Assembly (NCBI RefSeq): GCF_008634025.1 | Contig: NZ_PDCM01000001.1 | Coordinates: 800,501 to 864,500, forward strand | Direction: 5' to 3' | Source: Streptomyces albofaciens JCM 4342 | GTDB taxonomy: Bacteria; Actinomycetota; Actinomycetes; Streptomycetales; Streptomycetaceae | DNA length: 64,000 bases | In this document: positions 7,925 through 62,390 of the stretch, in pieces | Position numbering within the stretch: position 1 is the first letter of the stretch | Layout of the letters: every line of letters starts with the position of its first letter | The notes under the pieces: generated by a model | Seen by the model: the letters and a program-made list of their open reading frames with translations, nothing else | The model's database searches: none | Told to the model about the DNA's origin: nothing | Position numbers and translations under genes: made by a program

Positions 7925-7939
7925 CTGACGGGTCGTCAG
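7925..7939. promoter_or_regulatory. Regulon operator site 1 (CTGACGGGTCGTCAG)
   Basis: This is a 15-bp palindrome matching CTGACGGNCCGTCAG at 13 of 14 fixed positions. It lies 58 bp before the amidohydrolase start codon and just downstream of the predicted promoter. Confidence 0.8.
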
Positions 7940-7996
7940 GTCCAGCGTTCGGCGGCCCGTCGGCCACCGGCCGGGGAACCGCGTGAGGGGAACCAG

Positions 7997-9184
7997 ATGG
8001 AGCTACCGCGCATCGTCAGCGTCGACGACCACGTCATCGAGCCCGCGCACCTCTTCGAGACCTGGCTGCCGGCGAAGTACCGCGAACTCGGACCGAAGCC
8101 GTTCACCGCCGGGATCGGCGAGCTGGCGTACATCGGCGGGAAGTACAGGTTCACGACGGATCCGGAAGGCCCGCCGACGGACTGGTGGCGGTACGAGGGG
8201 GACCTCTTCCCGTACAAGCGGATCATCGCGGCTGTCGGCTTCTCCAGGGACGAGATGACCCTCGACGGCATCACCCGGGAGCAGATGCGGCGTGGCTGCT
8301 GGGACCCGAAGGCGCGCCTGGCGGACATGGACCTCAACCACGTCGAGGCGTCGCTGTGCTTCCCCACCTTCCCCCGCTTCTGCGGCCAGACCTTCGCCGA
8401 GGCCCAGGACAAGGACGTCGCCCTGGCGTGCGTGCGCGCGTACAACGACTGGATGGTGGAGGAGTGGTGCGGGGACAGCGGCGGGCGGCTGATCCCGCTG
8501 TGCCTCATCCCCCTGTGGGACGTCGGCCTGGCGGTCGCCGAGATACGGCGGAACGCGGCGCGCGGGGTTCGGGCCGTGACGTTCAGCGAGATACCGACGT
8601 ACCTCGGCCTGCCGTCGATCCACTCGGGCTACTGGGACCCGTTCTTCGCGGCCTGCGAGGAGACCGGGACGGTGGTCAACATGCACATCGGGTCCAGCTC
8701 GCAGATGCCCGCCGCCTCCCCCGACGCGCCGCCCGCCGTGCAGGCGTCGCTGAGCTTCAACAACGCCATGGCCTCGATGACGGACTTCCTCTTCAGCGGG
8801 GTGCTGGTGAAGTTCCCGCGCCTCAAACTCGCGTACAGCGAGGGGCAGATGGGATGGATCCCGTACGCCCTGGAGCGCGCCGACGACGTGTGGGAGGAGC
8901 ACCGCGCCTGGGGCGGCGTACGCGACCTGATCCCCGAGCCGCCGTCCACGTACTACTACCGGCAGATCTTCTGCTGCTTCTTCCGCGACAAGCACGGTGT
9001 CGAATCGATCGACGTGGTCGGCCGGGACAACGCGACCTTCGAGACCGACTACCCGCACGTCGACTCCACCTGGCCGCACACCAAGGAAGTCGCCCTCGAC
9101 CACGTACAGGGGCTGGACGAGGAGACCGTCCACAAGCTGATGCGCGGCAACGCGATCCGCATGCTGGAGCTGGATCTCGACTGA
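7997..9184 (+). CDS. Amidohydrolase-2 family metal-dependent hydrolase/decarboxylase
   Basis: The 395-residue protein belongs to the amidohydrolase-2 (ACMSD-like) TIM-barrel family. Metal-binding features are the N-terminal VDDHVIEP (residues 11-18), an inner MHIGSS His motif near 233, and a C-terminal ETDYPHVDSTWP that supplies the conserved Asp. Family members hydrolyse or decarboxylate cyclic and aromatic acids; the substrate here is unknown. The ATG start has GAGGGG six bases upstream. Its stop overlaps the start of the next gene (TGATG), so it is translationally coupled to the acyl-CoA dehydrogenase pair. A close paralogue lies at 58654-59877 behind the same operator. Confidence 0.82.
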   Translation: MELPRIVSVDDHVIEPAHLFETWLPAKYRELGPKPFTAGIGELAYIGGKYRFTTDPEGPPTDWWRYEGDLFPYKRIIAAVGFSRDEMTLDGITREQMRRGCWDPKARLADMDLNHVEASLCFPTFPRFCGQTFAEAQDKDVALACVRAYNDWMVEEWCGDSGGRLIPLCLIPLWDVGLAVAEIRRNAARGVRAVTFSEIPTYLGLPSIHSGYWDPFFAACEETGTVVNMHIGSSSQMPAASPDAPPAVQASLSFNNAMASMTDFLFSGVLVKFPRLKLAYSEGQMGWIPYALERADDVWEEHRAWGGVRDLIPEPPSTYYYRQIFCCFFRDKHGVESIDVVGRDNATFETDYPHVDSTWPHTKEVALDHVQGLDEETVHKLMRGNAIRMLELDLD

Positions 9185-10320
9185 TGGACCTCACGTACAC
9201 GCCCGAAGAGGAGGAGTTCCGGGTGCGGCTGCGTGAGTGGCTGGCCAAAGCCCTCCCGGAGCTGCCCGCGCGGCCCGACCCACTGGACTGGCCCGCCCGC
9301 CGCGCGTACGACCTCGGCTGGCAGCGGCGGCTGTACGACGCCGGATACGGCAGCCTGCACTGGGACGCCTCGCCCACCCAAAGGCTGATCTTCCTGGAGG
9401 AGACGGAGCTCGCCGGAGCCCCCTACGTCGGCGCCAACTTCGTCGGACTGCTGCACGCCGGGCCGACCATCGCCGCCGAGGGCACGGACGAGCAGCGCGC
9501 CCGCTGGCTGCCGCCGATCCTGCGCGGCGAGGCGGTCTGGTGCCAGGGCTTCAGCGAACCGGACGCGGGCTCCGACCTCGCCGCCCTGCGCACCCGCGCC
9601 GTACGGGACGGCGACGACTATGTGATCACCGGGCAGAAGACCTGGACCTCGCACGCGGAGATCGCCGACTGGTGCGAACTGCTGGTCCGCACGGACCCGG
9701 AGGCACCCCGGCACCGGGGCATCTCCTGGCTGGCGATGCCGATGGACGCGCCCGGGATCACCGTACGGCCGCTGCGCACGCTCGCCGGACCGGCCGAGTT
9801 CGCCGAGGTCTTCCTCGACGAGGTGCGGGTGCCGGTGGCCAACCGGGTCGGCGCGGAGCACGACGGCTGGCGCGTCACCATGGTCACGCTGTCCTTCGAG
9901 CGGGGCACCGCCTTCGTGGGCGAGGTCGTCGCCTGCCGCCGTACGCTCGGCGGGCTGGCCCGTACGGCCCGGGTGAACGGCCGCTGGGACGACCCGGTGC
10001 TGCGCCGCCGGCTGGGCCGGCTGAACGCCGAGTTCACGGCGCTGTGGCGGCTCATCCAGTGGAACGTCGGGGCGGCCGGTGCGGCGGGCGGGACGCCGGG
10101 GGCGGGCGGCTCCGTGTTCAAGCTGCGCTACTCGCAGGCCCGGCAGGAGCTGTACGACGCGGCCGCCGAGGTGCTGGGGACGGCCGGCGCGCTGGACGCG
10201 GACCAGGAGTGGACGGCGGCCCGGCTGTCGTCCCTCTCGTACACGATCGCCGCCGGTACGTCGCAGATCCAGCGCGACATCATCGCCGAGCGCCTGCTCG
10301 ACCTGCCGAAGGGACGGTGA
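9184..10320 (+). CDS. Acyl-CoA dehydrogenase, FadE29-like subunit
   Basis: This 378-residue flavoprotein introduces an alpha-beta double bond into an acyl-CoA. The N-terminal helical domain covers about 1-110. The middle FAD/substrate domain has WCQGFSEPDAGSDLA and VITGQKTWTS, and the C-terminal domain ends AAGTSQIQRDIIAERLL, where the usual Glu before GT is Ala. The start overlaps the upstream stop, and its own stop overlaps the next start (GTGA). In actinobacterial sterol catabolism, two adjacent unequal acyl-CoA dehydrogenases form an alpha2-beta2 enzyme with one active site per pair. The tight coupling here suggests the same arrangement. Confidence 0.85.
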   Translation: MDLTYTPEEEEFRVRLREWLAKALPELPARPDPLDWPARRAYDLGWQRRLYDAGYGSLHWDASPTQRLIFLEETELAGAPYVGANFVGLLHAGPTIAAEGTDEQRARWLPPILRGEAVWCQGFSEPDAGSDLAALRTRAVRDGDDYVITGQKTWTSHAEIADWCELLVRTDPEAPRHRGISWLAMPMDAPGITVRPLRTLAGPAEFAEVFLDEVRVPVANRVGAEHDGWRVTMVTLSFERGTAFVGEVVACRRTLGGLARTARVNGRWDDPVLRRRLGRLNAEFTALWRLIQWNVGAAGAAGGTPGAGGSVFKLRYSQARQELYDAAAEVLGTAGALDADQEWTAARLSSLSYTIAAGTSQIQRDIIAERLLDLPKGR

Positions 10321-11450
10321 GCGGGCCCGTGGACCTGCGACCCACTGCCGATCAACGGGCCTTGCAGGCGTCGGCGCGCGACCTGCTGGCGTGCCGCTTC
10401 GGGCGGGAGCGGCTGCGGGCGGCGGTGGACAGCCCGGCGCTCGACCGCGCGCTGTGGCGCGAGCTGGGCGCGGCCGGGTTCTTCGCGCTGCGGCTCCCGG
10501 AGGCGGACGGCGGGGTGGGGCTCGGGCTGCCGGAGGCGGTGCTGGTCTTCGAGGAGGCGGGGCGCGCCCTGCTGCCGGGGCCGCTGGTGGCGGGGCACCT
10601 CCTCGCGGGGGTGGTGCCGGGCGCGGCGACCGGGGAGCGGGTGGTGGGGCTGTGCGACGTGGGGGCGGACGGGGCGCGGCTGTGGGAACACCCTGCGGAC
10701 TGCGATGAGTTGATCTTGGTCGAGGGGACGGGGCCGGACGCTTCGGCCGAAATCGGGGGGTCGGACGCTCCACCCGTGGGTGCGGGGACGGACGCTCCGC
10801 CGAAAACCGCGGGATTGGACGCTCCGCCCGAGGACGCGGGGTCGGACGCTCCGCCCGAGAGCGCGGGGCCGGGCGCTCCGCCCGAGGATGCGGCGCACGC
10901 GTACTGGAACGCTTCCGACTGGCCCACCCTCGCCCCCCTCCGTTCCGTCGACCCGCTCACCCCGCTCGCGCGCGTGGTGTCCTACCCGCGCCGTGCGCCG
11001 CGCGCGCTCGACGTACCGCGGCTGCGCCGCGAAGCCGCCCTGCTGACCGCCGCGCTCCAGCTGGGCAGCGCTGCCCGTACGGTCGAGATGGCGGTGGAAC
11101 ACGCCCGACGGCGTGAGCAGTTCGGTGTACGGATCGGGGCCTTCCAGGCGGTGAAACACCTGTGCGCCGAGATGCTGATACGAGTGGAAATCGCGCGAAG
11201 TGCCGTCTATGCGGCCTCGCTCACCGGACAGTCACTCCCAGTAATCGGAGCGAAGGTGCTCGCCGATGAGGCGGCGGTGCGCAACGCCCGGGACTGTCTT
11301 CAGGTGCACGGCGGTATCGGCTTCACATGGGAGGCCGATGTGCACCTGCATCTCAAGCGTGCGTGGCTGCGCCTCGAACAATGGCAGAGCGGGGCAAAGG
11401 CGGAAGAAGCCCTCGCCGAAGCCCTTCTTGCCGGTGAGGTGGCCGTGTAG
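10317..11450 (+). CDS. Acyl-CoA dehydrogenase, FadE28-like subunit with internal decapeptide repeats
   Basis: The 377-residue partner of the preceding enzyme has a typical helical N-terminus and a C-terminus with VEHARRREQFGVRIGAFQAV and GGIGFTWEADVHLHLKRA. The middle beta domain is shortened and carries an insertion (about residues 145-195) of five to six imperfect copies of a ten-residue unit like GSDAPPEDAG, encoded by a 30-bp DNA repeat. The GTG at 10317 overlaps the previous stop by four bases. Pairing with the FadE29-like subunit is inferred from the coupling and from known steroid-type heterotetramers. The repeat probably forms a surface loop, but it could weaken the enzyme. Confidence 0.82.
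   Translation: MSGPVDLRPTADQRALQASARDLLACRFGRERLRAAVDSPALDRALWRELGAAGFFALRLPEADGGVGLGLPEAVLVFEEAGRALLPGPLVAGHLLAGVVPGAATGERVVGLCDVGADGARLWEHPADCDELILVEGTGPDASAEIGGSDAPPVGAGTDAPPKTAGLDAPPEDAGSDAPPESAGPGAPPEDAAHAYWNASDWPTLAPLRSVDPLTPLARVVSYPRRAPRALDVPRLRREAALLTAALQLGSAARTVEMAVEHARRREQFGVRIGAFQAVKHLCAEMLIRVEIARSAVYAASLTGQSLPVIGAKVLADEAAVRNARDCLQVHGGIGFTWEADVHLHLKRAWLRLEQWQSGAKAEEALAEALLAGEVAV
10755..10890 (+). repeat. 30-bp in-frame tandem repeat inside an acyl-CoA dehydrogenase gene
   Basis: About five imperfect 30-bp units built around ggacgctccgccc encode ten-residue repeats of the type (G)SDAPPEDAG. The reading frame is kept throughout. Such a minisatellite is unusual in a conserved metabolic enzyme. 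Confidence 0.75.
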
Positions 11451-11456
11451 TGCGTT

Positions 11457-13774: not shown

Positions 13775-13789
13775 CTAACGGGCCGTCAG
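13775..13789. promoter_or_regulatory. Regulon operator site 2 (CTAACGGGCCGTCAG)
   Basis: This matches the palindrome at 13 of 14 positions. It lies in the 92-bp divergent spacer between the cyclase and SDR genes. For the SDR, TTGTGC (13746-13751) and AAAAAT (13769-13774), 17 bp apart, would place the transcription start inside the site. Confidence 0.78.
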
Positions 13790-17248: not shown

Positions 17249-17911
17249 TCAGGCGCTGAAGCGGCCGAAGGCGCCCCGGTGGAACAGCAGCGGTCCGGCC
17301 TGCGCGGCCTCCGGGTCCGTACCGAGCGCGGCCACCCGTCCCACGACGATGAGGTGGTCGCCGCCGGTGTGCACGGCCTGGACCGCGCAGTCGATCCAGG
17401 CGGGCACGCCCGCGAGGCGCGGCGAGCCGGTGACGGGGGCGGGCGCGTGGGCGACCCCCGCGAACTTGTCGGCGCCGCTGACGGCGAAGCCCCGGCACAG
17501 CGCCTCCTGGCCCGCCCCCAGGATGTTGACGCAGAAGACCCCGGCGCGGGCGATCCGCGGCCAGGTTGTGGACGTACGGGCCACCATGAACGTGACCAGC
17601 GGCGGGTCCAGGGACAGCGACGCGAAGGACTGGCAGGCGAAGCCGGCCGGGCCGGGCGCCGCGGCGGCGCCGGTCCCGGCCGTAGGGGGCGCGGGCGCGG
17701 TGATGACCGTGACGCCGCTGGCGAAGTGGCCGAGTACGGCGCGGAAGTCGGCCGGGTCGAGCGGGGCGCGCTCGCCCTCCCGTACGGCTCTGAGGGCGGG
17801 GCGCGGCTCCGCGACGGCGCGGGCGGCCGGGTCCGGCGCCGTCGCGGAGGTCGGCGCGCCCACCGACCGCAGATAGCGCACCGCGGTGGCTGCCATACCG
17901 GCGTGTCCCAT
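17249..17911 (-). CDS. Flavin reductase-like protein (oxygenase reductase component)
   Basis: About 220 residues. After a 50-residue Ala-rich lead, the flavin-reductase domain starts at PADFRAVLGHFASGVTVIT and includes FACQSFASLSLDPPLVTFMV and VNILGAGQEALCRGFA. Such proteins deliver reduced FMN/FAD to two-component monooxygenases (HsaB-type) and could serve the luciferase-like enzymes of this regulon. ATG at 17914 and ATG at 17911 are adjacent; the second is better spaced from the GGGGG. Operator 17928-17942 sits only 17 bp upstream, so the leader must be very short. Confidence 0.8.
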   Translation of the reverse strand: MGHAGMAATAVRYLRSVGAPTSATAPDPAARAVAEPRPALRAVREGERAPLDPADFRAVLGHFASGVTVITAPAPPTAGTGAAAAPGPAGFACQSFASLSLDPPLVTFMVARTSTTWPRIARAGVFCVNILGAGQEALCRGFAVSGADKFAGVAHAPAPVTGSPRLAGVPAWIDCAVQAVHTGGDHLIVVGRVAALGTDPEAAQAGPLLFHRGAFGRFSA

Positions 17912-17927
17912 CATGCCCCCATTGAAC

Positions 17928-17942
17928 CTGATGGGCCGTCAG
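17928..17942. promoter_or_regulatory. Regulon operator site 3 (CTGATGGGCCGTCAG)
   Basis: This matches the palindrome at 13 of 14 positions. It lies 17 bp upstream of the flavin reductase start, which is transcribed leftward. Confidence 0.78.
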
Positions 17943-18939: not shown

Positions 18940-19075
18940 TCGTGCGGAAGGCGCGGGCCCAAACGTCCGTACGGAAGGCGCGGGCCCAACCGTCCGTACG
19001 GAAGGCGCGGGCCCGAGCGTCCGTATGGAAGGCGCGGGCGCGCCCGTCCGTACGGGAGGTGCCGGCCCGCCCGTC
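18940..19075. repeat. 27-bp tandem repeat array, five copies
   Basis: Units built on cgtccgtacggaaggcgcgg recur with an exact 27-bp period (conserved core at 18946, 18973, 19000, 19027, 19054). The array fills the space between the stop of the CoA ligase and the start of the crotonase. It stays open in the crotonase frame as nine-residue units like ARAFRTDGW, but is not conserved protein. Confidence 0.8.
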
Positions 19076-21344
19076 AGTGGCAGACGGCCAGCGCGTCGAG
19101 CGCGACCGCGCCCTGCCCGCGCGGCAGCACCATGAGCGGATTGATGTCCAACTCGGCCAGCTCGCCGCTAAGTTCCAGCGCCATGCGCTGCACCCGCAGC
19201 ACGACTTCGACCAGCGCGTCCACGTCCGCGGGCGGCGCGCCGCGCACCCCGTCCAGCAGCGCGCGGCCCCGCAGCTCGCCGAGCATCGCGCGGGCCCGGT
19301 CCTCGCCGAAGGGCGGCACACCGACGGCGGTGTCCCGCAGCACCTCGACCAGCACCCCGCCCAGCCCGACGGTCACGGTCGGCCCGAAGAGCGCGTCCGG
19401 CGTGACGCCCACGACCATCTCCACACCCCGCTCGACCATCTGGCAGACGAGCACGCCGTCCAGTTCGATGCCCTCGTGGCGGGCGGTGTCGGTCAGCTCC
19501 CGGTAGGTGTCCCTGACCTGACTGGCGGAGGTCAGCCCGGTGCGCACGAGCCCGAGTTCCGTCTTGTGGGCCAGGTGCGGCGCGGACGCCTTCAGGACGA
19601 CGGGGTAGCCGACCAGGCCCGCCGCGCGCACGGCCGCCGCCGCGCTGGTCACCAACTGCTCGCGCGGCACCCTGATCCCGTACGCGCGCAGCAGTTGCTT
19701 CGCCGCGTGCTCGCTGAGCTGCTGTCCCGGGCGCATCAGGTCCTGTGCCTTGCGCGCGGCGGGGGACGGGGTGCGCGGGGCGCCGTCGAAGGGGGAGCGG
19801 TAGGCGGCCGTGAAGCGGTGGTGTTCGAGGTGGGCGCGTACGGCCGTGACGCAGTTGGCGAACGTACGGAAGGTCGCCACCCGCCGCGACCCCAGCAGGG
19901 TGCGCCGATAGGCGTCCTCGGTGCCGACCGGCGAGCCCCAGACGACGCACACCAGCTTGTCCGTGGCCTCCGCCGCGTCCACGAGGTCCTGCGCCAGCTT
20001 GTCGCTCAGTGGCGGGAACGGGCCGGTGATCGGGCAGATCAGGACGCCGATCGACGGGTCCGCCAGGATCGCGTCTACGATCTTCCGGCCGCGCCGGTCG
20101 CCCACCGGGTGCCCGCCGCTGTCCACCGGGTTGGCGACGCTGAGGTAGTCCGGGATCCACTGGTGCAGCTCGTCCTGCTTCGCGCGGCCGAGCGTGGGCA
20201 GCCGCAGCCCGGCGGCCGTCGCCAGATCCGCGAAGTGGGCGCCGGTGCCCCCGGATATCGAATAGACGGCGACGCCGTCGGCGGTGGGCGTACGGGCGCG
20301 GGCGAGCAGGGCCGCGGTGTCCTGCAACTCGTCCAGCCCGTCCACCCGGATCACACCGAACTGCCGCATGGCCGCGTCCACCACCGCGTCGGCGCCGGTG
20401 AGCTTGCCGGTGTGCGAGGCGGCGGTCCGCGCCCCGGCCTCGGTGCGGCCGACCTTGACGGCGACCACCGGGACCTTGTTGCGGGCCGCGCGGTCGGCGG
20501 CGAGCAGGAAGCCGCGGCCGTCCTTGAAGCCTTCGACGTAGGCGGCGATGGCCCCGACCTCGGGACGGGAGGCGAAGTAGGAGAGGAAGTCGGCGGTCTC
20601 CAGATCGGCCTCGTTGCCGGTCGGTGCCCAGTGGGAAAGGCGGATGCCCAGCTCCTGGAGGGAGAAGACGGGACGGCCCTGGTGGCCTGACTGGGTGATC
20701 AGGGCGATGGCGGGACCGTCCAGGTCCTCGCGGAACGACTCGAAGGCGTTGAGGTTGGTGTTCGGGCCGAGCAGCCGGATGCCGGTACGGGCCACGGCCT
20801 CGGCGAGCCGGTCCTGGGCGGCCGCGCCGGCCGCCCCGGTCTCGGCGAAGCCGGAGGCGAAGGCCACCGCGAACCTGACCTTGGCCTCGGCCAGTTCCTC
20901 GATGACCGGCACCGGGTCCGCGACCAGCAGCACGGCGAGATCGACCTGTTCCGGCAGGTCGGAGACGGAGGTGTGACAGGGCAGGCCGAAGACGCGGTCC
21001 CGGCCCGGGTTGACCGGGTGGAGGCGGGCACCGACCCGCCCGGCCCACGCGATCAGCTGCCGGGTGATCTCGGCGTTGGGGCGGCCCTCGCTGTCGGAGG
21101 CGCCGACGACCGCCACCGCCCCGGGCCGGAAGAACCGGTCCAGGTCGGGCACGGGGGCGTACAGCGGGCGCCCGCTGACGTCCAGGTCGGGCTCCCTGCC
21201 GTCGGCGTGCGCGCCGTCGGCGGACGGGCGGCCGGTGTGCGGTACGGCCGTACCGTGCACGGTGTGCGGCGGTGTCGCCCCGCACGCCACCACGCGGGCC
21301 GGGCTGGAGTGAGTGGTGAGGCTGCCGTAGGTCGATCCAAGCAT
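19074..21344 (-). CDS. NDP-forming acyl-CoA ligase (acetate-CoA ligase family)
   Basis: The 756-residue single-chain enzyme has a CoA-binding Rossmann domain (about 66-160, VAVVGASDSEGRPN), a succinyl-CoA-ligase-like flavodoxin domain with SGHQGRP and ASHTGKLTGAD phosphohistidine-region motifs, and a C-terminal ATP-grasp domain (about 530-750, VVLKASAPHLAHKTELGLV). It activates a carboxylic acid to its CoA ester using ATP and releasing ADP and phosphate. A 60-residue Gly/Pro/His-rich head precedes the first domain. Two operators lie 39-78 bp upstream of the start. The crotonase follows downstream. Confidence 0.85.
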   Translation of the reverse strand: MLGSTYGSLTTHSSPARVVACGATPPHTVHGTAVPHTGRPSADGAHADGREPDLDVSGRPLYAPVPDLDRFFRPGAVAVVGASDSEGRPNAEITRQLIAWAGRVGARLHPVNPGRDRVFGLPCHTSVSDLPEQVDLAVLLVADPVPVIEELAEAKVRFAVAFASGFAETGAAGAAAQDRLAEAVARTGIRLLGPNTNLNAFESFREDLDGPAIALITQSGHQGRPVFSLQELGIRLSHWAPTGNEADLETADFLSYFASRPEVGAIAAYVEGFKDGRGFLLAADRAARNKVPVVAVKVGRTEAGARTAASHTGKLTGADAVVDAAMRQFGVIRVDGLDELQDTAALLARARTPTADGVAVYSISGGTGAHFADLATAAGLRLPTLGRAKQDELHQWIPDYLSVANPVDSGGHPVGDRRGRKIVDAILADPSIGVLICPITGPFPPLSDKLAQDLVDAAEATDKLVCVVWGSPVGTEDAYRRTLLGSRRVATFRTFANCVTAVRAHLEHHRFTAAYRSPFDGAPRTPSPAARKAQDLMRPGQQLSEHAAKQLLRAYGIRVPREQLVTSAAAAVRAAGLVGYPVVLKASAPHLAHKTELGLVRTGLTSASQVRDTYRELTDTARHEGIELDGVLVCQMVERGVEMVVGVTPDALFGPTVTVGLGGVLVEVLRDTAVGVPPFGEDRARAMLGELRGRALLDGVRGAPPADVDALVEVVLRVQRMALELSGELAELDINPLMVLPRGQGAVALDALAVCH

Positions 21345-21382: not shown

Positions 21383-21397
21383 CTGACGTTCAGTCAG
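21383..21397. promoter_or_regulatory. Regulon operator site 4 (CTGACGTTCAGTCAG)
   Basis: The outer halves CTGACG and GTCAG fit the consensus, and the centre is CTGAC-GTTCA-GTCAG. It is the first of two operators upstream of the CoA ligase; the centres lie 25 bp apart. Confidence 0.72.
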
Positions 21398-21407: not shown

Positions 21408-21422
21408 CTGACGCCCCGTCAG
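21408..21422. promoter_or_regulatory. Regulon operator site 5 (CTGACGCCCCGTCAG)
   Basis: This matches at 13 of 14 positions. It overlaps the stop codon of the flavoprotein monooxygenase gene (21419), so the ligase promoter lies at the 3' end of its upstream neighbour. Confidence 0.75.
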
Positions 21423-22831: not shown

Positions 22832-22846
22832 CTGACGGTCAGTCAG
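22832..22846. promoter_or_regulatory. Regulon operator site 6 (CTGACGGTCAGTCAG)
   Basis: This matches at 13 of 14 positions. It lies in the divergent spacer between the monooxygenase (leftward) and the DUF35 protein (rightward), so it can serve both. Confidence 0.78.
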
Positions 22847-37072: not shown

Positions 37073-37087
37073 CTGACGGTATATCAG
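37073..37087. promoter_or_regulatory. Weak regulon operator site 7 (CTGACGGTATATCAG)
   Basis: The left half is perfect and the right half matches 4 of 7, but the outer CTGA...TCAG symmetry and length are preserved. It lies five bases upstream of the thiolase start codon. Confidence 0.5.
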
Positions 37088-37145: not shown

Positions 37146-37160
37146 ATGACGGGTCGTCAG
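37146..37160. promoter_or_regulatory. Regulon operator site 8 (ATGACGGGTCGTCAG)
   Basis: This matches at 12 of 14 positions. It lies in the divergent spacer between the thiolase and the acyl-CoA dehydrogenase genes. Confidence 0.76.
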
Positions 37161-38429: not shown

Positions 38430-38479
38430 GGGCGGCCGGGCGGGGAAGGGTGTCCGTACGGGCGAGGGAGGCCGGTGAC

Positions 38480-39806: not shown

Positions 39807-39814
39807 GCCGTCAG
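39800..39814. promoter_or_regulatory. Weak regulon operator site 9 across the TetR start codon
   Basis: Read on the minus strand it is CTGACGGCATGACAG: a perfect half-site, then a half matching 4 of 7. It covers the TetR start codon and suggests self-control. Confidence 0.45.
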
Positions 39815-47643: not shown

Positions 47644-47649
47644 GGAAAC

Positions 47650-48888: not shown

Positions 48889-48903
48889 CTGACGGGTAGT
48901 CAG
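48889..48903. promoter_or_regulatory. Regulon operator site 10 (CTGACGGGTAGTCAG)
   Basis: This matches at 12 of 14 positions. It lies in the divergent spacer between the thiolase-DUF35-crotonase operon and the AMP-forming CoA ligase. Confidence 0.77.
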
Positions 48904-48942: not shown

Positions 48943-50730
48943 ATGCGGTGTGCCGATCCGTCAGAGCACGACCCGCGCGCCGGTGTCCGCTCGACCGACG
49001 TCACCGGCCCACGCGTCGATGACTGCGCGGCCGACGTCCCCGGCCCGCATACCGGTGTCCGCTCGACCGACGCCCCCGACCCGCGCACCGGCGCCCGAGA
49101 GCCCGACGCCGCCGACCCCCGCGCCGATCTGGAGTACGGCACCGTCCCGCGCCTGGTGCGCGCCGCCGCCGAGCGGTACGGACCGGCCGAGGCGGTCGCC
49201 GAGGGGCGCACCCGCCTGACGTACACGCAGCTGGGGGAGCGGGTCGAGCGGGCCGCGGCGGCGTGCCTCGCCGCCGGTGTCGAGCCCGGCGACCGGGTGG
49301 CCGTCTGGGCGCCCAACACCGCCGACTGGATCACCGCCGCGCTCGGCGCCGTCACCGCGGGCGCCGTCCTGGTCCCGGTCAACACCCGCTTCAAGGGCGC
49401 CGAAGCGGCCTACGTCCTGCGCCGCACCCGCGCCCGGCTGCTGTTCGTCACCGGCACGTTCCTCGGCACGTCGTACGTCGCCTCGCTGCGCCGCGCGGCC
49501 CGCGAGGGCACCGGCGACGGCCCGCTCCCCGGCCTGCCGCACCTCGAACGGGCCGTCGTCCTCTCCGGCGACGCCCCCGCCGGCTTCCTCGCATGGCAGG
49601 ACTTCCTCGCGGCGGGCGAGCCGGTGCCCACGGACGCCGTACGGTCCCGGGCCGACGCGATACGCCCCGACGACCCCTCGGACATCATCTTCACCTCGGG
49701 CACCACGGGCCGCCCCAAAGGCGCGGTGATCACGCACGCCCAGACCCTGCGCGCCTACGGGGTCTGGAGCGCCCTCGCCGGACTGGCGCCCGGCGACCGC
49801 TATCTGATCGTCAACCCGTTCTTCCACACCTTCGGCTACAAGGCCGGAATCCTCGCCTGCCTGCTGCGCGGGGCGACGATGATCCCGCAGCCGGTGTTCG
49901 GCGCCGCCACGGCGCTGGCCAACATCGCCGCCGAACGCGTCACCGTCCTCCCCGGCCCGCCCGCCCTCCACCAGCAGCTCCTGGACGACCCCGGGCGCGG
50001 GCGGTACGACCTCGGCTCGCTGCGCCTGGTCGTCACCGGCGCGGCCGTCGTCCCGCTCACCCTGGTCGAACGGCTCCGCGCCGAGCTGGGCGTGACCACC
50101 GTGCTGACCGCCTACGGCCTCTCGGAAAGCTCCGGTATCGCCACGATGTGCCGCCGCAGCGACCCGCCCGAGGTCGTCGCGGCCACCTCCGGACGCGCCG
50201 TACCGGACACGGAGATACGGGTCGTGGACAGCGACGGGCGGGCCGTGCCGCCCGGCACGGCGGGGGAGGTGCTGGTCCGCGGCTACCACGTGATGACCGG
50301 CTATTTCGAGGACCCGCGGGCCACCGCCGAGGTGCTCACGCAGGACGGCTGGCTGCGCACGGGCGACATCGGCGTCCTGGACGCGGACGGCAACCTGCGC
50401 ATCACCGACCGCCTCAAGGACATGTTCATCGTCGGCGGCTTCAACGCCTATCCCGCCGAGATCGAGCAGCTGCTCGCCCGCCACCCGGACGTGGCGGAGG
50501 TCGCCGTCGTCGGCGTCCCCGACGCGCGGCTGGGCGAGGTCGGCAAGGCGTACGCGGTGCGCCGCCCGCGGTCCGCGCTGACGGCGGACGAGCTGATCGC
50601 GTGGGCCCGGCGGGAGATGGCCAACTACAAGGTGCCGAGAGAGGTCGCGTTCGTCCCGGCACTGCCGCGCAACGCGAGCGGGAAGGTCGTGAAGGGGGAG
50701 TTGCGGGGCGGCGCCCCGGCCGTGTCATGA
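48943..50730 (+). CDS. AMP-forming acyl-CoA synthetase (FadD3-like)
   Basis: The 595-residue adenylate-forming enzyme has a 60-residue Asp/Pro/Arg repeat head (GVRSTDVTGP type), then the family motifs: IIFTSGTTGRPKGAV, AYGLSES, GWLRTGDIG, ITDRLKDMFIVGGFN and the catalytic Lys in PRNASGKVVK near the C terminus. It activates a carboxylate to acyl-AMP and then acyl-CoA. The general pattern resembles FadD3/FadD17-type ligases of steroid catabolism; the substrate is not deducible. GGGAGG lies eight bases before the ATG. It is divergent from the thiolase operon. Confidence 0.87.
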   Translation: MRCADPSEHDPRAGVRSTDVTGPRVDDCAADVPGPHTGVRSTDAPDPRTGAREPDAADPRADLEYGTVPRLVRAAAERYGPAEAVAEGRTRLTYTQLGERVERAAAACLAAGVEPGDRVAVWAPNTADWITAALGAVTAGAVLVPVNTRFKGAEAAYVLRRTRARLLFVTGTFLGTSYVASLRRAAREGTGDGPLPGLPHLERAVVLSGDAPAGFLAWQDFLAAGEPVPTDAVRSRADAIRPDDPSDIIFTSGTTGRPKGAVITHAQTLRAYGVWSALAGLAPGDRYLIVNPFFHTFGYKAGILACLLRGATMIPQPVFGAATALANIAAERVTVLPGPPALHQQLLDDPGRGRYDLGSLRLVVTGAAVVPLTLVERLRAELGVTTVLTAYGLSESSGIATMCRRSDPPEVVAATSGRAVPDTEIRVVDSDGRAVPPGTAGEVLVRGYHVMTGYFEDPRATAEVLTQDGWLRTGDIGVLDADGNLRITDRLKDMFIVGGFNAYPAEIEQLLARHPDVAEVAVVGVPDARLGEVGKAYAVRRPRSALTADELIAWARREMANYKVPREVAFVPALPRNASGKVVKGELRGGAPAVS

Positions 50731-51944: not shown

Positions 51945-53540
51945 TCAGGCCCCGGCCGCCCCGCCCCCGTACCGCTCCCGCAGCGCCGCCTTGAGCACCT
52001 TGTTCAGCGGCCCGCCGCGGGGGAGCTCGGGCAGGATCTCCAGCTGCTCCGGCAGCTTCTGGGGCATCAGGCCGGAGCGGCGCAGGTGAGCGGTCAGCGC
52101 CGGGAGCGTCAGCGGCCCGTCGGACGCGCCGGCCGTCCTGTCGAGCGTCACCACCGCACAGACCCGCTCGCCGCGCTCGCGGTCCGGCAGCCCGATCACG
52201 GCGGCCTCGGCCACCGCCGGGTGGGCGCGGACCAGCTCCTCCACCTCCGGCGCGGAGATGTTCTCGCCCTTCCGGATGATGATGTCCTTCAGCCGCCCGG
52301 TCAGGACGAGGTGCCCGTCCGGGCGCAGCAGGCCCAGGTCGCCGGTACGGAAGCAGCCGTCCGCGTCGAAGGCCGCGGCCGTCAGCGCGGGGTCGGTGTA
52401 GCCGCGGCAGACCATCGGGCCGCGCACCGTGACCTCGCCCGCCTCGCCGGTCGCCGCCGCTGACCCGTCCGCGCGGACGATCCGTACGCGGGCGCCGGTC
52501 ACCGGCTTCCCCACGGTGTGGGCGAGCTGTTCGTCGGTGTCGTACGGCGTACCCATCGCGATCATCGGGCACTCCGTCATCCCGTACCCGTGCACCACCG
52601 CGCACCCCAGCTCGCGTACCGCCGCGTGGTACAGATCGGGCGGCAGCGGCGCCCCGCCCCCGGACAGCAGCCGCAGGGAGGGGATCAGCCGGCCCGTCGG
52701 CGCCGCCCCGCCGGACCCGGCGCGCCGCCGCGCCTCGTCGAGGAACGCCTGGTAGAAGGCTGTGCTCCCGCCGGCCATCGTCACCCCGTGCCGCCGGTAC
52801 GCCTCGGTCGCCGCGGCGGGGTCGAAGGTGTCCAGCACCACCGCGGGGAAGCCGCTGAGCAGCATGGCGATTACATAGTCCGGGCCCGCGATGTGCGCGT
52901 ACGGGAACGCCATCGAGCCGATGTCCGCGTCCGTCATGCCCAGCGCGGTGGCCAGTCCGATGCCGCCCGCGATCAGGGAGGCGTCGGTGTGCAGGACGCC
53001 TTTGGGCTCGGCCGTCGTGCCCGAGGTGTAGTAGATCCACGTCGGGGTGGCACGGTCCGGCCGTACGCACTCCGGGAGTACGCCGTCGGGCGCCGCCTCC
53101 GGCAGCCCGTCCGCGACGGAGAGCACGCGCACGCCGCCGTCGGCCGCCTTGCGTACCGTGCCCGCGTAGTCGTGGCCGCGCCACTCGCCCGGCACGATCG
53201 CGTACTCCGCCGCCGACTGCCGCAGCGCGAAGCCGACTTCGCGCTCCCGGTGCAGATGCAGCACCGGTATCTGTACGGCGCCGAGCCGGGCCAGCGCGAG
53301 CGACACCGCGACCGTCAGGGGCCAGGTGGGCAGCTGCCACAGCACGCGCGTCCCGGCGCCGATCCCCAGCCCCCGGAAGCCGGCCGCCAGCCGCAGGGCC
53401 CGGTCGCGCACCCGGCCGAAGGTGAGGGCCCGGCCGGATCCCCGGGTGCTCTCGTCGAAGAACATCGGCGCCCGCGGGGACACCTCGGCCCGGTACTCCA
53501 TCAGTTCCCAGAGCGAGCGCACACGATCGGGTTCGAACAC
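51945..53540 (-). CDS. AMP-forming acyl-CoA synthetase (cyclohexanecarboxylate-CoA ligase-like)
   Basis: The 531-residue enzyme has the adenylation motifs WIYYTSGTTAEPKGVLHT (Arg/Lys region slightly altered), VVHGYGMTECPM, CFRTGDLGLLRPDGH, GRLKDIIIRKGENISAPEVEEL and a C-terminal PLNKVLK with the catalytic Lys. KGENISAPEVE is typical of the cyclohexanecarboxylate/short aromatic acid ligase group. GTG at 53540 is preferred because GGAGG lies six bases upstream; the longer frame would run into operator 53584-53598. Confidence 0.85.
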   Translation of the reverse strand: MFEPDRVRSLWELMEYRAEVSPRAPMFFDESTRGSGRALTFGRVRDRALRLAAGFRGLGIGAGTRVLWQLPTWPLTVAVSLALARLGAVQIPVLHLHREREVGFALRQSAAEYAIVPGEWRGHDYAGTVRKAADGGVRVLSVADGLPEAAPDGVLPECVRPDRATPTWIYYTSGTTAEPKGVLHTDASLIAGGIGLATALGMTDADIGSMAFPYAHIAGPDYVIAMLLSGFPAVVLDTFDPAAATEAYRRHGVTMAGGSTAFYQAFLDEARRRAGSGGAAPTGRLIPSLRLLSGGGAPLPPDLYHAAVRELGCAVVHGYGMTECPMIAMGTPYDTDEQLAHTVGKPVTGARVRIVRADGSAAATGEAGEVTVRGPMVCRGYTDPALTAAAFDADGCFRTGDLGLLRPDGHLVLTGRLKDIIIRKGENISAPEVEELVRAHPAVAEAAVIGLPDRERGERVCAVVTLDRTAGASDGPLTLPALTAHLRRSGLMPQKLPEQLEILPELPRGGPLNKVLKAALRERYGGGAAGA

Positions 53541-53583: not shown

Positions 53584-53598
53584 ATGACGACCCGTCAG
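53584..53598. promoter_or_regulatory. Regulon operator site 11 (ATGACGACCCGTCAG)
   Basis: This matches at 12 of 14 positions. It lies between the CoA ligase (leftward, 44 bp) and the PPOX-family gene (rightward, 83 bp). Confidence 0.76.
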
Positions 53599-58618: not shown

Positions 58619-58633
58619 CTGACGGTCCGTCAG
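58619..58633. promoter_or_regulatory. Regulon operator site 12, perfect (CTGACGGTCCGTCAG)
   Basis: All 14 fixed positions match. The left half doubles as the -35 element of the amidohydrolase promoter. Confidence 0.88.
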
Positions 58634-58653: not shown

Positions 58654-59877
58654 ATGGAGAGTTTTCCGAAGATAATCTCGGTGGACGATCACACGGTGGA
58701 GCCGCCCGATGTCTGGCGGGACCGCCTCCCCTCGAAATATCACGACATCGGCCCCCGAATCGTCCGGGCGCCGGTGGCGGAAATGACCTTCGCCGGCGGA
58801 AGATTCGCGCCGAAAATGGGCCGGCCGGGCGACCCCGGCCCGCTCGCCGACTGGTGGGTCTACGAGGACCTGCACCGCCCCCTGACCCGCCTCGACACGG
58901 CCGTCGGGTACCCCCGGGACGACATCAGACTCGAAGGCATCACCTACGAGCAGATGCGCCCCGGTTCCTTCAGCGTGCCGGAGCGGCTGGCGGACATGGA
59001 CGCCAACCATGTGCAGTCCGCCCTCTGTTTCCCCACATTCCCGCGCTTTTGCGGACAGACCTTCACGGAGGCCAAGGACCGCGAACTGGCGCTGCTCGGT
59101 GTGCGCGCGTACAACGACTGGATGGTCGAGGACTGGTGCGGCCCGGCCGCGCGCGGACGCCTCGTACCGCTCACGCTCGTCCCGTTGTGGGACCCGGAGC
59201 TGGCCGCCGAGGAGGTGCGCCGGAACGCGGAACGGGGCGTACGGGCGGTCTGCTTCAGCGAGATTCCGCCACATCTGGGACTGCCCAGCATCCACACCGG
59301 TCACTGGGACCCCTTCCTGCGGGCCTGCGACGAGACCGGGACGGTCATCGCCATGCACATCGGGTCCTCCAGCCGGATGCCGTCCACCTCCGCCGACGCG
59401 CCGCCCGCCGTCGGCTCCACGATCACCTTCGCCAACTGCTGCTTCTCGATGGTCGACTGGCTGATGAGCGGAGCGTTCGACCGCTTCCCCGGCCTGAAGG
59501 TCATGTACGCGGAGGGACAGATCGGGTGGATCCCGTACATCCTGGAGCGCGCCGACGTGGTCTGGGAGGAGAACCGCGGCTGGGGCGGGGTCGCCGACAA
59601 GGTGCTGCGCCCGCCGTCCGAGCTCTTCGCCGGCCATGTGTACGGCTGCTTCTTCGACGACGCCTTCGGCCTGCGCAACCTGGACGCGATCGGCGTGGGC
59701 AACGTCCTGTACGAGACCGACTACCCGCACTCCGACTCCACCTGGCCGCGCTCCCGCGAGGTCGGCGAGGCCCAGATGGGCCACCTGGCGCCCGACGTGG
59801 TCGAGCGGATCGTCCGCGGCAACGCCATCGAGTTGCTGGGGCTGACGCCGGAAGGGCTGTGGGCGCACGCGGCGTGA
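58654..59877 (+). CDS. Amidohydrolase-2 family metal-dependent hydrolase/decarboxylase
   Basis: The 407-residue paralogue of the 7997 gene shares IISVDDHTVEPPDVW, CFPTFPRFCGQTFTEAKDRELALLGVRAYNDWMVEDWCG, CFSEIPPHLGLPSIHTGHWDPF, MHIGSSSRMPSTSADAPPA and YETDYPHSDSTWPRSREV. Metal ligands are the N-terminal DDH region, the His of MHIGSS and the Asp of TDYPH. No ribosome site is present before the ATG, in keeping with the predicted leaderless transcript. Two copies of the same enzyme family under one operator suggest two successive or alternative substrates. Confidence 0.84.
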   Translation: MESFPKIISVDDHTVEPPDVWRDRLPSKYHDIGPRIVRAPVAEMTFAGGRFAPKMGRPGDPGPLADWWVYEDLHRPLTRLDTAVGYPRDDIRLEGITYEQMRPGSFSVPERLADMDANHVQSALCFPTFPRFCGQTFTEAKDRELALLGVRAYNDWMVEDWCGPAARGRLVPLTLVPLWDPELAAEEVRRNAERGVRAVCFSEIPPHLGLPSIHTGHWDPFLRACDETGTVIAMHIGSSSRMPSTSADAPPAVGSTITFANCCFSMVDWLMSGAFDRFPGLKVMYAEGQIGWIPYILERADVVWEENRGWGGVADKVLRPPSELFAGHVYGCFFDDAFGLRNLDAIGVGNVLYETDYPHSDSTWPRSREVGEAQMGHLAPDVVERIVRGNAIELLGLTPEGLWAHAA

Positions 59878-59972
59878 GCCACCATGGGAGGGGCGGCCGG
59901 GACCGGACCGCCCGCGCGGACCGCGTCCGCCGGACGCGGTCCGCGGCCGACGGGGGACAGGAGGTGACGCGG

Positions 59973-60779
59973 ATGACGACGTTCGTGCTGGTGTCGGGCG
60001 GCTACACCGGAGGGTGGATCTGGCGGGAGGTGGCGGAGCACCTGCGGGCGGTGGGGCACCGGGCGGAACCGGTGACACTGACCGGCATGGGGGACCGCCG
60101 CCACCTCTCGGGACCCGGCACCGACCTGAACACCCACATCGAGGACGTGGCGCAGGTCCTGGACCACGTCGGCGCGGGCGAGGAGGGCGAGGCGGGGGAG
60201 ACGGTGCTCGTCGCCCACTGTTACGGCGCCTACCCGGCGCTGGGCGCCGCGGACCGCGACCCGGGCCGCCTGGCGCGCCTCGTACACGTGGACGCGGGCC
60301 TGCCCACCGACGGCGCGTCCGTCCTGGACGCGCTGCCCGACCCGGCCGTACGGGAACGCCTGCACCGCCGCGCCCAGGAACACGGCGACGGCTGGCGTCT
60401 GCCGCCCCCGGCCTTCGAGGAGACCGACATCTGGGGCAGCCTGGACGGCATCTCGCAGGAGGGCCGGGAGCGGCTGGCCCGCTTCGCGGCGCCGCAGCCC
60501 CTGGCCACCCTCACCCAGCCGATCCGGCTGACCGGCGCCACGGCCGCACTGCCGGCCACGGGCATCTTCTGCACGAAGAACGTCACCAGCACCGCCGCCC
60601 TCCGCGACCTGGTGGCGTCCGGCGACCCGCGCTTCGCCGCGCTCGCCGACCCCCGGTACGGCTTCTTCGACCTCGACACCGGGCACTGGCCCATGCTGTC
60701 CTGCCCCGGCGAGCTGGCCGACCTGCTGCTGCGGGCCGCGGCGGACGAGGGGGAGCGGCTCGGCGCACCCGGCCGATGA
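59973..60779 (+). CDS. Alpha/beta hydrolase with a cysteine nucleophile
   Basis: The 268-residue protein starts FVLVSGGYTGGWIWREVAEHLRAVGHRAEPVTLTGMGDR, like plant hydroxynitrile-lyase/methylesterase-type hydrolases. The nucleophile elbow reads VAHCYGAYPAL (Cys near residue 79, where Ser is usual). The Asp/His partners are in the C-terminal half, with His in DTGHWPML. A Cys nucleophile is known in dienelactone hydrolase. GGAGG precedes the ATG by eight bases. It follows the amidohydrolase by 95 bp and is likely co-transcribed. Confidence 0.78.
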   Translation: MTTFVLVSGGYTGGWIWREVAEHLRAVGHRAEPVTLTGMGDRRHLSGPGTDLNTHIEDVAQVLDHVGAGEEGEAGETVLVAHCYGAYPALGAADRDPGRLARLVHVDAGLPTDGASVLDALPDPAVRERLHRRAQEHGDGWRLPPPAFEETDIWGSLDGISQEGRERLARFAAPQPLATLTQPIRLTGATAALPATGIFCTKNVTSTAALRDLVASGDPRFAALADPRYGFFDLDTGHWPMLSCPGELADLLLRAAADEGERLGAPGR

Positions 60780-60831
60780 GCCCGGCCGGGCCGCCTCCGG
60801 CCCGCCCCCGGCGCCCCGGCATGATGGGATC

Positions 60832-61215
60832 ATGAGCAACCGACCCGTACTCGTCTACGACGGGGACTGCGGCTTCTGCACCACCTCCGTGCGGTTCGCC
60901 GAGCGCCGTATCCGCCCCCGCTGCACCGTCACCGCCTGGCAGTTCGCCGATCTCGAAGCGCTCGGCGTCACCCGGGAGCGGGCCGAGCACGAGGTCCTGT
61001 GGATCACCCCGGCCGGGACGGTGTACGGCGGGGCGCAGGCGGTCGCCAAGCTGCTGATGAGCGCGCGGGGCGGCTGGGCCGTGCCCGGGGCGCTGCTGAC
61101 CCTGCCCCCGTTCCGGCAGCTCGCCCACGTCGTCTACCGGCTGGTGGCCGACAACCGGCACCGGATGCCCGGCGGCACCGCCGCCTGCTCACTGCCCTCC
61201 CACCTCAGGCCCTGA
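60832..61215 (+). CDS. DCC-family (DUF393) thiol-disulfide oxidoreductase-like protein
   Basis: The 127-residue protein carries the family motif VYDGDCGFCTTSVRFA (residues 8-23) with the D-x-x-C-x-x-C core, and a second conserved segment WITPAGTVYGGAQAVAKLL. DCC proteins adopt a thioredoxin-like fold; their roles are mostly unknown. It lies 52 bp after the hydrolase in the same direction. Inclusion in the catabolic unit is possible but not required. Confidence 0.84.
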   Translation: MSNRPVLVYDGDCGFCTTSVRFAERRIRPRCTVTAWQFADLEALGVTRERAEHEVLWITPAGTVYGGAQAVAKLLMSARGGWAVPGALLTLPPFRQLAHVVYRLVADNRHRMPGGTAACSLPSHLRP

Positions 61216-61240: not shown

Positions 61241-61255
61241 CTGACGGCCCGTCGG
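61241..61255. promoter_or_regulatory. Regulon operator site 13 (CTGACGGCCCGTCGG)
   Basis: This matches at 13 of 14 positions. It is the first of two sites before the first luciferase-like gene; the centres lie 40 bp apart. Confidence 0.75.
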
Positions 61256-61295: not shown

Positions 61296-61309
61296 CCGGG
61301 GCTGCGGGG

Positions 61310-62296
61310 GTGGACGTGGACAGCGGTACGCAAAGCAACGGACCCGGCGTGCGGGTGCTGCCCGAAGGGCGGCTGTCGTACGGCATGCAGCTCCCGGTGC
61401 AGTCGCAGAGCACCCTGTACGCGGAGCCCTGGGAGGCCGGGGCCGGGCCGGCCGACCTCGTCGAGATCGCCCGCGCGGCCGACCGCCACGGCTTCGCCTA
61501 CATCGCCTGCTGCGAGCACATCGGTGTCCCGCGCCGGCTGGCCGCGGCCATGAGCACGGTCTGGTACGACCCGGTCGCCACCCTCGCGTACCTGGCGGCG
61601 GCCACCACCCGCGTCCGCCTGCTCAGCCACATCGCCCTGGTCGGCCTCAAGCACCCGCTGATCACGGCGAAGCAGTACGCGACGCTGGACCGCCTCTCGG
61701 GCGGTCGGCTGATCCTCGGCGTCGGCGCCGGGCACGTACGGGAGGAGTTCGACGCCCTCGGCGTGGACTTCACGCGGCGCGGGGCCCTGCTGGACGAGGC
61801 GGTCGACGCGCTGAAGGCGGCCCTGGGGCCCGAGGAGTTCCCCGCCTTTCAAGGGAAACGATTCGCCTTCGCGGGGCTGGGCCAGTCACCGCGCCCCGCG
61901 CAGGTGCCGCGCCCGCCCGTCTGGGTGGGCGGCTCCTCACCCGCCGCCGTGCGCAGGGCGGCGGTCCGGGGTGACGGCTGGCTGCCGCAGGGCGACCGCC
62001 GGGACCGGCTGCCGGGACAGCTGGCGAAGCTGCGGCGGCTGCGCGAGGAGGCGGGCATCCGTACGCCCGCCGAGGCCGGTGCCATCACCGAGCCGCTGTA
62101 CGTCGGCGCGCCCGCGTGGGAGGTCGGGCGGTGCACGCTCGCCGGGGCGCCCGAGCGGCTGGCCGACTCGCTCCGGGAGTACGGGGCCATGGGCGTACAG
62201 CAGATCCAGGTGCGGTTCCGCAGCCGGAGCCGCGCCGAACTCACCGACCAGATGGCGGCGTTCGCGGAGGAGGTGGCGCCGTACCTCGACAGCTGA
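61310..62296 (+). CDS. LLM-class (luciferase-like) F420/flavin-dependent oxidoreductase
   Basis: The 328-residue TIM-barrel protein has ADRHGFAYIACCEHIGVPR, TTRVRLLSHIALVGLKHPLITAKQYATLDRLSGGRLILGVGAGHVREEFDALGVDF and PPVWVGGSSPAAVRRA, all typical of the F420-dependent branch (TIGR03619-like). It may oxidise or oxygenate a pathway intermediate. The GTG at 61310 or 61316 starts it. Operators 61241-61255 and 61281-61295 lie immediately upstream, so it has its own promoter within the last cluster. Confidence 0.84.
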   Translation: MDVDSGTQSNGPGVRVLPEGRLSYGMQLPVQSQSTLYAEPWEAGAGPADLVEIARAADRHGFAYIACCEHIGVPRRLAAAMSTVWYDPVATLAYLAAATTRVRLLSHIALVGLKHPLITAKQYATLDRLSGGRLILGVGAGHVREEFDALGVDFTRRGALLDEAVDALKAALGPEEFPAFQGKRFAFAGLGQSPRPAQVPRPPVWVGGSSPAAVRRAAVRGDGWLPQGDRRDRLPGQLAKLRRLREEAGIRTPAEAGAITEPLYVGAPAWEVGRCTLAGAPERLADSLREYGAMGVQQIQVRFRSRSRAELTDQMAAFAEEVAPYLDS

Positions 62297-62317
62297 CGCG
62301 CGGCACGGGAGCGGTGC

Positions 62318-62332
62318 CTGACGGGCCGTCAG
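62318..62332. promoter_or_regulatory. Regulon operator site 15, perfect (CTGACGGGCCGTCAG)
   Basis: All 14 fixed positions match. It abuts the -35 element of the second luciferase-like gene on its upstream side. Confidence 0.88.
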
Positions 62333-62335
62333 GTA

Positions 62336-62364
62336 TTGACGCTCCGCCCGCCCGGTGCCACAGT
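62336..62364 (+). promoter_or_regulatory. Promoter of the second luciferase-like gene, flanked by two operators
   Basis: TTGACG (62336-62341) and CACAGT (62359-62364) are 17 bp apart. Operator 15 ends four bases before the -35 element, and operator 16 covers the expected transcription start, so repressor dimers would clamp both ends. Confidence 0.6.
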
Positions 62365-62375
62365 CGGGCCCGTAA

Positions 62376-62390
62376 CTGACGTGCCGTCAG
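62376..62390. promoter_or_regulatory. Regulon operator site 16 (CTGACGTGCCGTCAG)
   Basis: This matches at 13 of 14 positions. It sits at about +5 to +20 of the predicted transcript of the luciferase-like gene. Confidence 0.8.

Follow-up and report, generated by a model that had tools for sequence, protein, structure and literature searches.

The stretch analysed here comprises 64,000 nucleotides of Streptomyces albofaciens JCM 4342 (GCF_008634025.1, NZ_PDCM01000001.1:800,501-864,500, i.e., G000:C1:800501-864500; below, the window) from a genome of 9.25 Mb. It carries fifteen copies of one palindrome, which lie beside genes for acyl-CoA dehydrogenases, acyl-CoA ligases, thiolase-fold proteins, amidohydrolases and oxidoreductases, and one copy covers the start of a gene for a TetR-family protein (Table 1). 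The palindrome is very probably the operator of this protein (39806-39159), which is predicted to repress a coenzyme A (CoA)-dependent catabolic module together with its own gene. Genes were called by a codon-usage script and their start codons are uncertain; the Pfam scan covered 51 of the 55 called genes, and protein names given without a passed model cut-off stand for resemblances only.

An earlier note on this DNA had listed 16 copies of the palindrome, and all 16 sequences were found again in the window where it had placed them. Scored with a symmetric matrix of 23 columns, 15 of these sites reach 18.9-31.0 bits (15.5-29.4 bits when each is omitted from the matrix), and the next-best unlisted places score 13.8 and 13.6 bits. 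Site 61281 was dropped, at 8.0 bits and 2.3 when omitted from the matrix, so that the list holds for 15 copies only. Sites 37073 and 39800, which the note had graded as weaker, reach 24.1 and 21.0 bits, and this grading did not hold up. The motif extends beyond the 15 bases described there, to about 19, and reads A-N-CTGACGGNCCGTCAG-N-T. Its placement in promoter-type gaps was borne out: none of the 15 site centres lies inside a called gene at a coding fraction of 0.838, with the caveat that site 39800 covers the first TetR codons if TetR starts at 39806. The reported lack of copies between 23.5 and 35 kb stands as well, the best place there scoring 13.6 bits at 28606. Chance, which the note had dismissed, is indeed no explanation, since WNCTGACGNNNCGTCAGNW, A/T flanks included, with up to two mismatches matches the window 14 times against 0.66 expected, and a first-order Markov sequence of 6.4 Mb has no place of at least 16 bits. 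Seven 20-kb stretches taken arbitrarily from this genome gave single places of 16.4, 16.0 and 14.3 bits and none other of at least 13. The bare 15-mer with three mismatches (25 found) was not taken as the main test, because 10.7 are expected by chance. The palindrome is therefore real.

Table 1. Proposed regulator, predicted operators and adjoining genes in the window, followed by sites elsewhere in the same genome (operator scores in bits of the site matrix)
Feature	Position	Strand	Remarks
TetR-family protein, proposed repressor	39159..39806	-	215 aa; C-terminal domain PF19352 (TetR_C_38), Pfam 240.8 bits
Predicted operator over TetR start	39800..39814		21.0 bits
Predicted operator before amidohydrolase A operon	7925..7939		24.7 bits
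Predicted target operon: Amidohydro_2 protein, two acyl-CoA dehydrogenases	7997..11450	+	
Predicted operator between cyclase and short-chain dehydrogenase (SDR)	13775..13789		24.7 bits
Presumed target: PF04199 cyclase	12748-13719	-	divergent from SDR across site 13775
Presumed target: SDR	13812-14723	+	
Predicted operator before flavin reductase	17928..17942		27.7 bits
Predicted target: flavin reductase	17249..17914	-	nearest NCBIfam HsaB, 177 bits, below 230 cut-off
Predicted operator 1 of tandem pair before ATP-grasp ligase	21383..21397		25.5 bits; sense TAACCT
Predicted operator 2 of ATP-grasp pair	21408..21422		24.2 bits; 25 bp from operator 1
Predicted target: ATP-grasp (ADP-forming type) acyl-CoA synthetase	19074..21260	-	in 45/61 genomes
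Predicted operator before flavin monooxygenase	22832..22846		26.1 bits
Predicted target: FMO-like flavin monooxygenase	21419..22738	-	start ~22738 or 22567
Predicted operator 5 bp ahead of thiolase start (37068 -)	37073..37087		24.1 bits
Predicted target: thiolase (Thiolase_C_1)	35872..37068	-	
Predicted operator before acyl-CoA dehydrogenase	37146..37160		31.0 bits; embedded TAATAT
Predicted target operon: IpdE2-like acyl-CoA dehydrogenase, Ddn-like F420H2-dependent reductase	37194..38956	+	
Predicted operator between Ltp2-like operon (-) and FadD3-family ligase (+)	48889..48903		26.8 bits; TAACCT
Predicted target operon: Ltp2-like lipid-transfer protein, ChsH2-type DUF35, enoyl-CoA hydratase	46304..48801	-	Ltp2-like protein: PRK07855, over cut-off
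Predicted target: FadD3-family acyl-CoA ligase	48943..50730	+	PRK07656 781.6 bits, cut-off 657
Predicted operator between acyl-CoA ligase and PNPOx-like gene (53682-54113 +)	53584..53598		21.6 bits
Presumed target: acyl-CoA ligase	51945..53540	-	nearest cyclohexanecarboxylate-CoA ligase, below cut-off
Predicted operator before amidohydrolase B operon	58619..58633		28.2 bits; perfect dyad
Predicted target operon: Amidohydro_2 protein, alpha/beta hydrolase, DCC1-like protein	58654..61215	+	
Weakest accepted operator, before LLM oxidoreductase	61241..61255		18.9 bits; 15.5 when omitted from the matrix
Presumed target: F420-dependent LLM oxidoreductase	61349..62296	+	TIGR03619, over cut-off
Predicted operator 1 before second LLM oxidoreductase	62318..62332		27.5 bits; perfect dyad
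Predicted operator 2 before second LLM oxidoreductase	62376..62390		29.1 bits
Presumed target: LLM oxidoreductase, then Amidohydro_3 gene	62429..64000	+	Amidohydro_3 gene runs off window
Strong gap site outside window	L018, 891-893 kb		flanks SDR/aminotransferase pair and unknown gene
Strong gap site outside window	L028		acyl-CoA dehydrogenase
Strong gap site outside window	L029		zf-ChsH2/thiolase pair
Strong gap site outside window	L025		P450/thiolase divergence
Strong gap site outside window	L026		methyltransferase/thiolase divergence
Strong gap site outside window	L027		MaoC hydratase
Strong gap site outside window	L421		LLM oxidoreductase
Strong gap site outside window	L425		acyl-CoA dehydrogenase adjoining ferredoxin-type reductase
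Site without catabolic link	L422		precedes gene without Pfam match
Site without catabolic link	L423		convergent gap

The TetR protein is the sole TetR hit in the Pfam scan. PF00440 matches its N-terminus with 25.7 bits (cut-off 24.0) on a gene call that is short of 30 N-terminal residues, and the helix-turn-helix (HTH) of EthR aligns to residues 14-77 of the full-length protein. An AlphaFold2 model (pLDDT 86.7, pTM 0.80, ten helices) has EthR entries as its 24 best Foldseek matches, with FadR acyl-CoA regulators among the next; the nearest fold, EthR, aligns with TM scores of 0.77/0.86 at 16% identity. By its HTH domain, its all-helical fold with a larger C-terminal domain and the palindrome at its own promoter, the protein belongs to the TetR family. 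Its C-terminal family, PF19352, was found above cut-off in 24 of 296 genomes of the phylum and in 0 of 14 well-known control genomes, and the regulator is present in all 61 Streptomyces genomes searched. Literature searches, whose coverage did not extend to subscription papers or image logos, returned no paper on this regulator or its operator, nor the family name TetR_C_38. The TetR ATG lies inside site 39800, where the minus strand reads TAAGCT (-10-like) GACGGC ATG; since a -10-like hexamer and the start codon share one operator, the TetR transcript is likely leaderless.

The genes beside the sites fit a catabolic regulon, as had been proposed for acyl-CoA and cyclic-compound catabolism. 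The site-adjoining acyl-CoA dehydrogenases resemble PimC and IpdE2, and two thiolase-fold proteins stand beside sites, one of them of Ltp2 type over the cut-off. Two Amidohydro_2 paralogues (7997-9184 and 58654-59877) are ~55% identical; 43 of the 61 Streptomyces genomes have them, always both together. Of these 61 genomes, 43 contain all three of the target genes tested, 16 contain none and 2 are mixed, and this joint presence or absence in 59 points to one pathway. Taken together, the genes look like a pathway degrading a ring-shaped acid. A large SARP-type BTAD/NB-ARC/TPR regulator gene (55358-58300) is divergent from the amidohydrolase B operon across site 58619.

Loss of the motif at orthologous promoters had been named in the earlier note as an outcome that would refute a regulon, and conservation was examined at 10 of the 15 window sites (those left out are 13775, 53584, 61241, 62318 and 62376). 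TetR orthologues were the best 80 of at least 504, with identities of 86-94%. A site of at least 20.7 bits lies over TetR's own start in 80/80 of them. The conserved first TetR codons force part of this conservation, but the dyad's upstream half falls outside the coding sequence. A further place of at least 15 bits occurs near the TetR orthologue at 72 of the 80 loci, and the remaining eight comprise five contigs below 9 kb and three longer ones (L084, L118, L133). Within these loci the upstream site is kept in 70/70 orthologues of the thiolase and 31/32 of the ATP-grasp ligase, and corresponding counts were 65/65 for the acyl-CoA dehydrogenase behind site 37146, 53/53 for Ltp2, 20/23 for the flavin monooxygenase (FMO) and 10/12 for the flavin reductase. 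Counted from its called start, which is placed too far upstream, the FadD3 gene seemed to lack the site (4/49); with distances taken from the first aligned residue, within limits of -500 to +60, the site is there in 49 of 50, and the apparent lack was rejected. The true start of this ligase is probably some 60 codons downstream of the called one. Upstream sites are missing at genes in later positions of their presumed operons (0/70, 0/57, 0/54 and 0/21) and at bystander genes (none of 21, 9, 8, 3 and 3); at the gene at 40195 an upstream site occurs in 4 of 10. Orthologues of the PNPOx-like gene next to site 53584 have no site (0/3), which counts against this gene as a target. Among the sites of at least 18 bits in the 80 loci (own sites included), 395 of 397 reach at most 60 bp inside a called gene, at a coding fraction of 0.836.

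Targets far from the regulator behave in the same way. The best-scoring 30 loci, own genome included, were taken from 43 carriers of amidohydrolase A, 43 of amidohydrolase B and 45 of the ATP-grasp ligase, and the upstream site is present in 30/30 for each, with 29, 25 and 24 distinct sequences, respectively; before the ATP-grasp gene the sites are paired in all 30 loci. Far from being lost, the sites are thus kept at each of these three distant targets as at the nearer thiolase, dehydrogenase and Ltp2 genes.

A genome scan with up to one mismatch found 39 places; the reversed pattern gave 3. Eleven of the 39 fall in C1:808-893 kb, which has a probability of ~5e-14 under uniform placing for a region picked after seeing the data. 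The 28 places outside it split into 15 of at least 13 bits and 13 that score lower; six of the 15 have scores of 16 bits or more and sit within called genes (L033, L035, L039, L040, L041, L045), so the scattered places are a mixture. The scan was one of the two refuting tests set out in the earlier note, and the outcomes support a regulon of catabolic genes. A sequence-only model applied genome-wide ranked the 85-kb region first, with 11 of the first 13 distinct places; its best E is 0.039, and it therefore ranks rather than proves. Two scattered sites stand apart: a 24-bit site at L046:3526 (C2:4433825) lies in the gap behind a SigB/SigF-type sigma factor gene, with no catabolic link, and a 24.3-bit site at L411 (C2:3224405) lies within the body of a ThiF/rhodanese-type gene, an apparent exception to the promoter rule.

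Co-occurrence was also examined across genomes. The median number of places with up to one mismatch is 33 in Streptomyces genomes with the module and 17.5 in those without it. Around the regulator of 14 of the 16 module-less genomes, stretches of up to 20 kb were read. Thirteen of them retain the regulator's own site; the exception is G600, whose regulator shows 65% identity. Nothing else in these stretches scores 16 bits or more. These 14 genomes have 36 extended matches, of which 19 were read and 9 lie in gene bodies, like background. Among 296 genomes of the class, 25 outside Streptomyces carry the regulator. At least five exact copies of CTGACGNNNCGTCAG were found in 10 of 20 non-Streptomyces carriers against 2 of 243 non-carriers (five genomes of family f13 left out), and both copy-rich non-carriers (G150, 68% complete, and G152) come from families with carriers. 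Twenty of the 25 carrier loci, with regulator relatives 33-53% identical, were read. Within -330 to +60 of the relative's aligned start the core occurs in 15/20 at 13 bits or more and in 10/20 at 16 bits, and 16/20 loci have a site of at least 18 bits somewhere. In three genomes of one genus (L166, L168, L169) a site of 24.3 bits, identical in sequence, recurs 7-9 kb upstream of the regulator relative, which suggests a conserved target in another family.

Family f13 is a case of its own. Its genomes G012, G035, G053, G069 and G085 (loci L382-L401, L183, L217 and L229) contain 109-218 exact copies of CTGACGNNNCGTCAG each, with 0-1 for the reversed control. Of 36 copies in 420 kb of G012, much of which was chosen around known copies, gene bodies hold 15, tandem gaps 12, convergent gaps 8 and divergent gaps none, and 1 is unplaced; the word is the commonest 6-N3-6 dyad of that stretch (the next occurs 9 times). 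At L217 and L229 both genes of a convergent pair have their stop codons within a copy. The f13 copies are not promoter operators, and the exact-copy count was abandoned as a measure of regulon size in f13, because its copies are not at promoters.

The motif could instead be the operator of another regulator encoded elsewhere, with the TetR gene merely one of its targets. The window does encode a MarR-like protein (29897-30478) and the SARP-type regulator. However, the TetR gene accompanies the motif across families, is present in every Streptomyces genome searched and keeps its own site in 13 of the 14 module-less genomes read, as expected of an autoregulated gene. A short palindrome beside their own gene is also usual for TetR proteins. 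With the screen confined to regulators of the window, the involvement of another regulator is improbable.

Besides the coding constraint on the own site, several observations weigh against assigning the palindrome to the TetR protein and the module. Three of the 15 window sites (13775, 39800 and 61241) are not recovered by the genome-wide sequence-only model, which lists the other 12. Three module-less Streptomyces (G592, G607, G614) have 49-50 places with up to one mismatch, and 7 of 28 Streptomyces, all with the regulator, have fewer than five exact copies of CTGACGNNNCGTCAG (21 have five or more). Genomes are related and their counts not independent, because of which the Fisher value of 3e-11 for the association of carriers with copies is overstated. 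Five of the 20 distant relatives lack a 13-bit place near their start; L179, L180, L184 and L185 have no 18-bit place in the locus, L180 despite a nearly identical recognition helix, on a contig of 6.6 kb. Three of the 20 loci (L181-L183) belong to f13, where the word is common anyway.

The motif and its positions, its conservation with the regulator and at the tested targets, and the -10-like hexamers in some operators were read directly from the DNA. From them we infer a mechanism in which a TetR dimer would bind A-N-CTGACGGNCCGTCAG-N-T within the 85-kb region, at a dozen promoters or more, and at some distant ones, overlap promoter elements and so repress the CoA-dependent catabolic module and the regulator's own gene. 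Release from DNA would follow when a pathway intermediate occupies the C-terminal domain. The likeliest intermediate is an acyl-CoA thioester of an alicyclic or polycyclic acid, an acyl-CoA inducer being suggested by the target genes and by FadR and KstR2-type systems.

The mode of action was approached through 85 one-sided sites, with the regulator's own sites excluded and 226 sites between divergent genes set aside. A TANNNT hexamer ending at dyad position -6 is oriented towards the gene at 29 of the 85 and away from it at none, for which reason occlusion of RNA polymerase is the likeliest action. In the window such embedded hexamers occur at 37146, 39800, 48889 and 21383. Other offsets (+4, 21 sense vs 10 antisense; +18, 18 sense) are left uninterpreted, and a composition profile over oriented sites was set aside, as it was dominated by the regulator's own sites. 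That only 4 of the 15 window sites carry the hexamer, and that none of the 29 embedded hexamers has a -35-like partner (4/6 to TTGACA, spacers 15-20), counts on the opposite side. The TetR protein might then bind the motif and activate, or both activate and repress: the remaining 56 of the 85 sites have no fixed -10-like overlap, and the ATP-grasp sites lie 78-189 bp ahead of the aligned start. Yet these distances are uncertain because start codons are uncertain, and the hexamer at a fixed place points to the gene 29 times against 0. Activation is therefore rated as very unlikely, and repression is the preferred mode.

Inverted repeats may also work at the RNA level, as leader, attenuator or terminator hairpins, instead of as DNA sites, and the f13 word does sit at some convergent gene ends. 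In a pairing test on a larger matrix of 247 distinct sites, positions 4-6 were invariant and uninformative, and pairing exceeded the shuffled level at flank position 11 (0.29 vs 0.22). However, it was at or below that level at the variable positions 1-3 and 7-10, where the score threshold may lower the figure, and the distance from site to start ranges from inside the start codon to ~250 bp. With no covariation between the core halves, an operator in DNA is the likelier reading, and hairpins are hardly credible.

The 247-site matrix has CTGACG half-sites and matches neither the consensus of the KstR (Rv3574) operator, given as TnnAACnnGTTnnA, nor that of KstR2, given as AnCAAGnnCTTGnT, just as the earlier note had stated. 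The likeness lies in the design. KstR is described as a TetR repressor with an own-promoter palindrome partly over the -10 element and many lipid-catabolic genes under its control, with RNA polymerase occlusion as the proposed action (PMC1995591). The present protein shares the family, the own-promoter palindrome and lipid-type catabolic targets, whereas KstR, as described there, governs cholesterol genes. KstR2 is likewise presented as a TetR repressor beside divergent operons of CoA-dependent catabolism (PMC3068626), with FadD3 and ipd genes listed among its targets in PMC7807495. The window resembles this arrangement in having a FadD3-family ligase and IpdE2-like dehydrogenases, but the KstR2 regulon is given as 15 genes, and no CoA-transferase family hit was found by Pfam among the window genes scanned. 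Ten solved sequences match the regulator at E<=0.001 and none is named KstR or KstR2, a comparison made without a tree. EthR of Mycobacterium tuberculosis is the closest in solved fold and HTH match, yet distant in sequence. The neighbour of the EthR gene is a flavin monooxygenase gene. The EthR operator is described as larger and more complex in PMC4482099. SRTF1 of Nocardioides simplex is described as a TetR protein that governs steroid-responsive genes and has a palindrome next to its gene (PMC7062782, PMC7807495); that palindrome spans 22 bp, and the likeness is one of description. A system that works like KstR or KstR2 with a different operator is thus strongly predicted from the sequence.

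What does the pathway degrade? Of the 9,10-seco steroid set (kstD, kshA, hsaACD, ipdAB) the window has only single-step relatives, although no dedicated search was made, and steroid pathways are given as missing from 55 of 57 Streptomyces genomes in PMC4810484, which makes a canonical steroid role unlikely for most carriers. We tentatively propose, at slightly less than even confidence, a master regulon for an undescribed pathway of most Streptomyces that acts on a polycyclic or alicyclic, steroid- or terpenoid-like acid; its regulator would predate the module, occur in every Streptomyces and persist alone as a self-repressing gene. An operator and a target list can now be proposed for a TetR protein that all 61 Streptomyces genomes searched possess, and a sensor for a cyclic acid could follow. 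The main interest lies in the catabolic pathway itself, in a genus that is mostly without known steroid catabolism.

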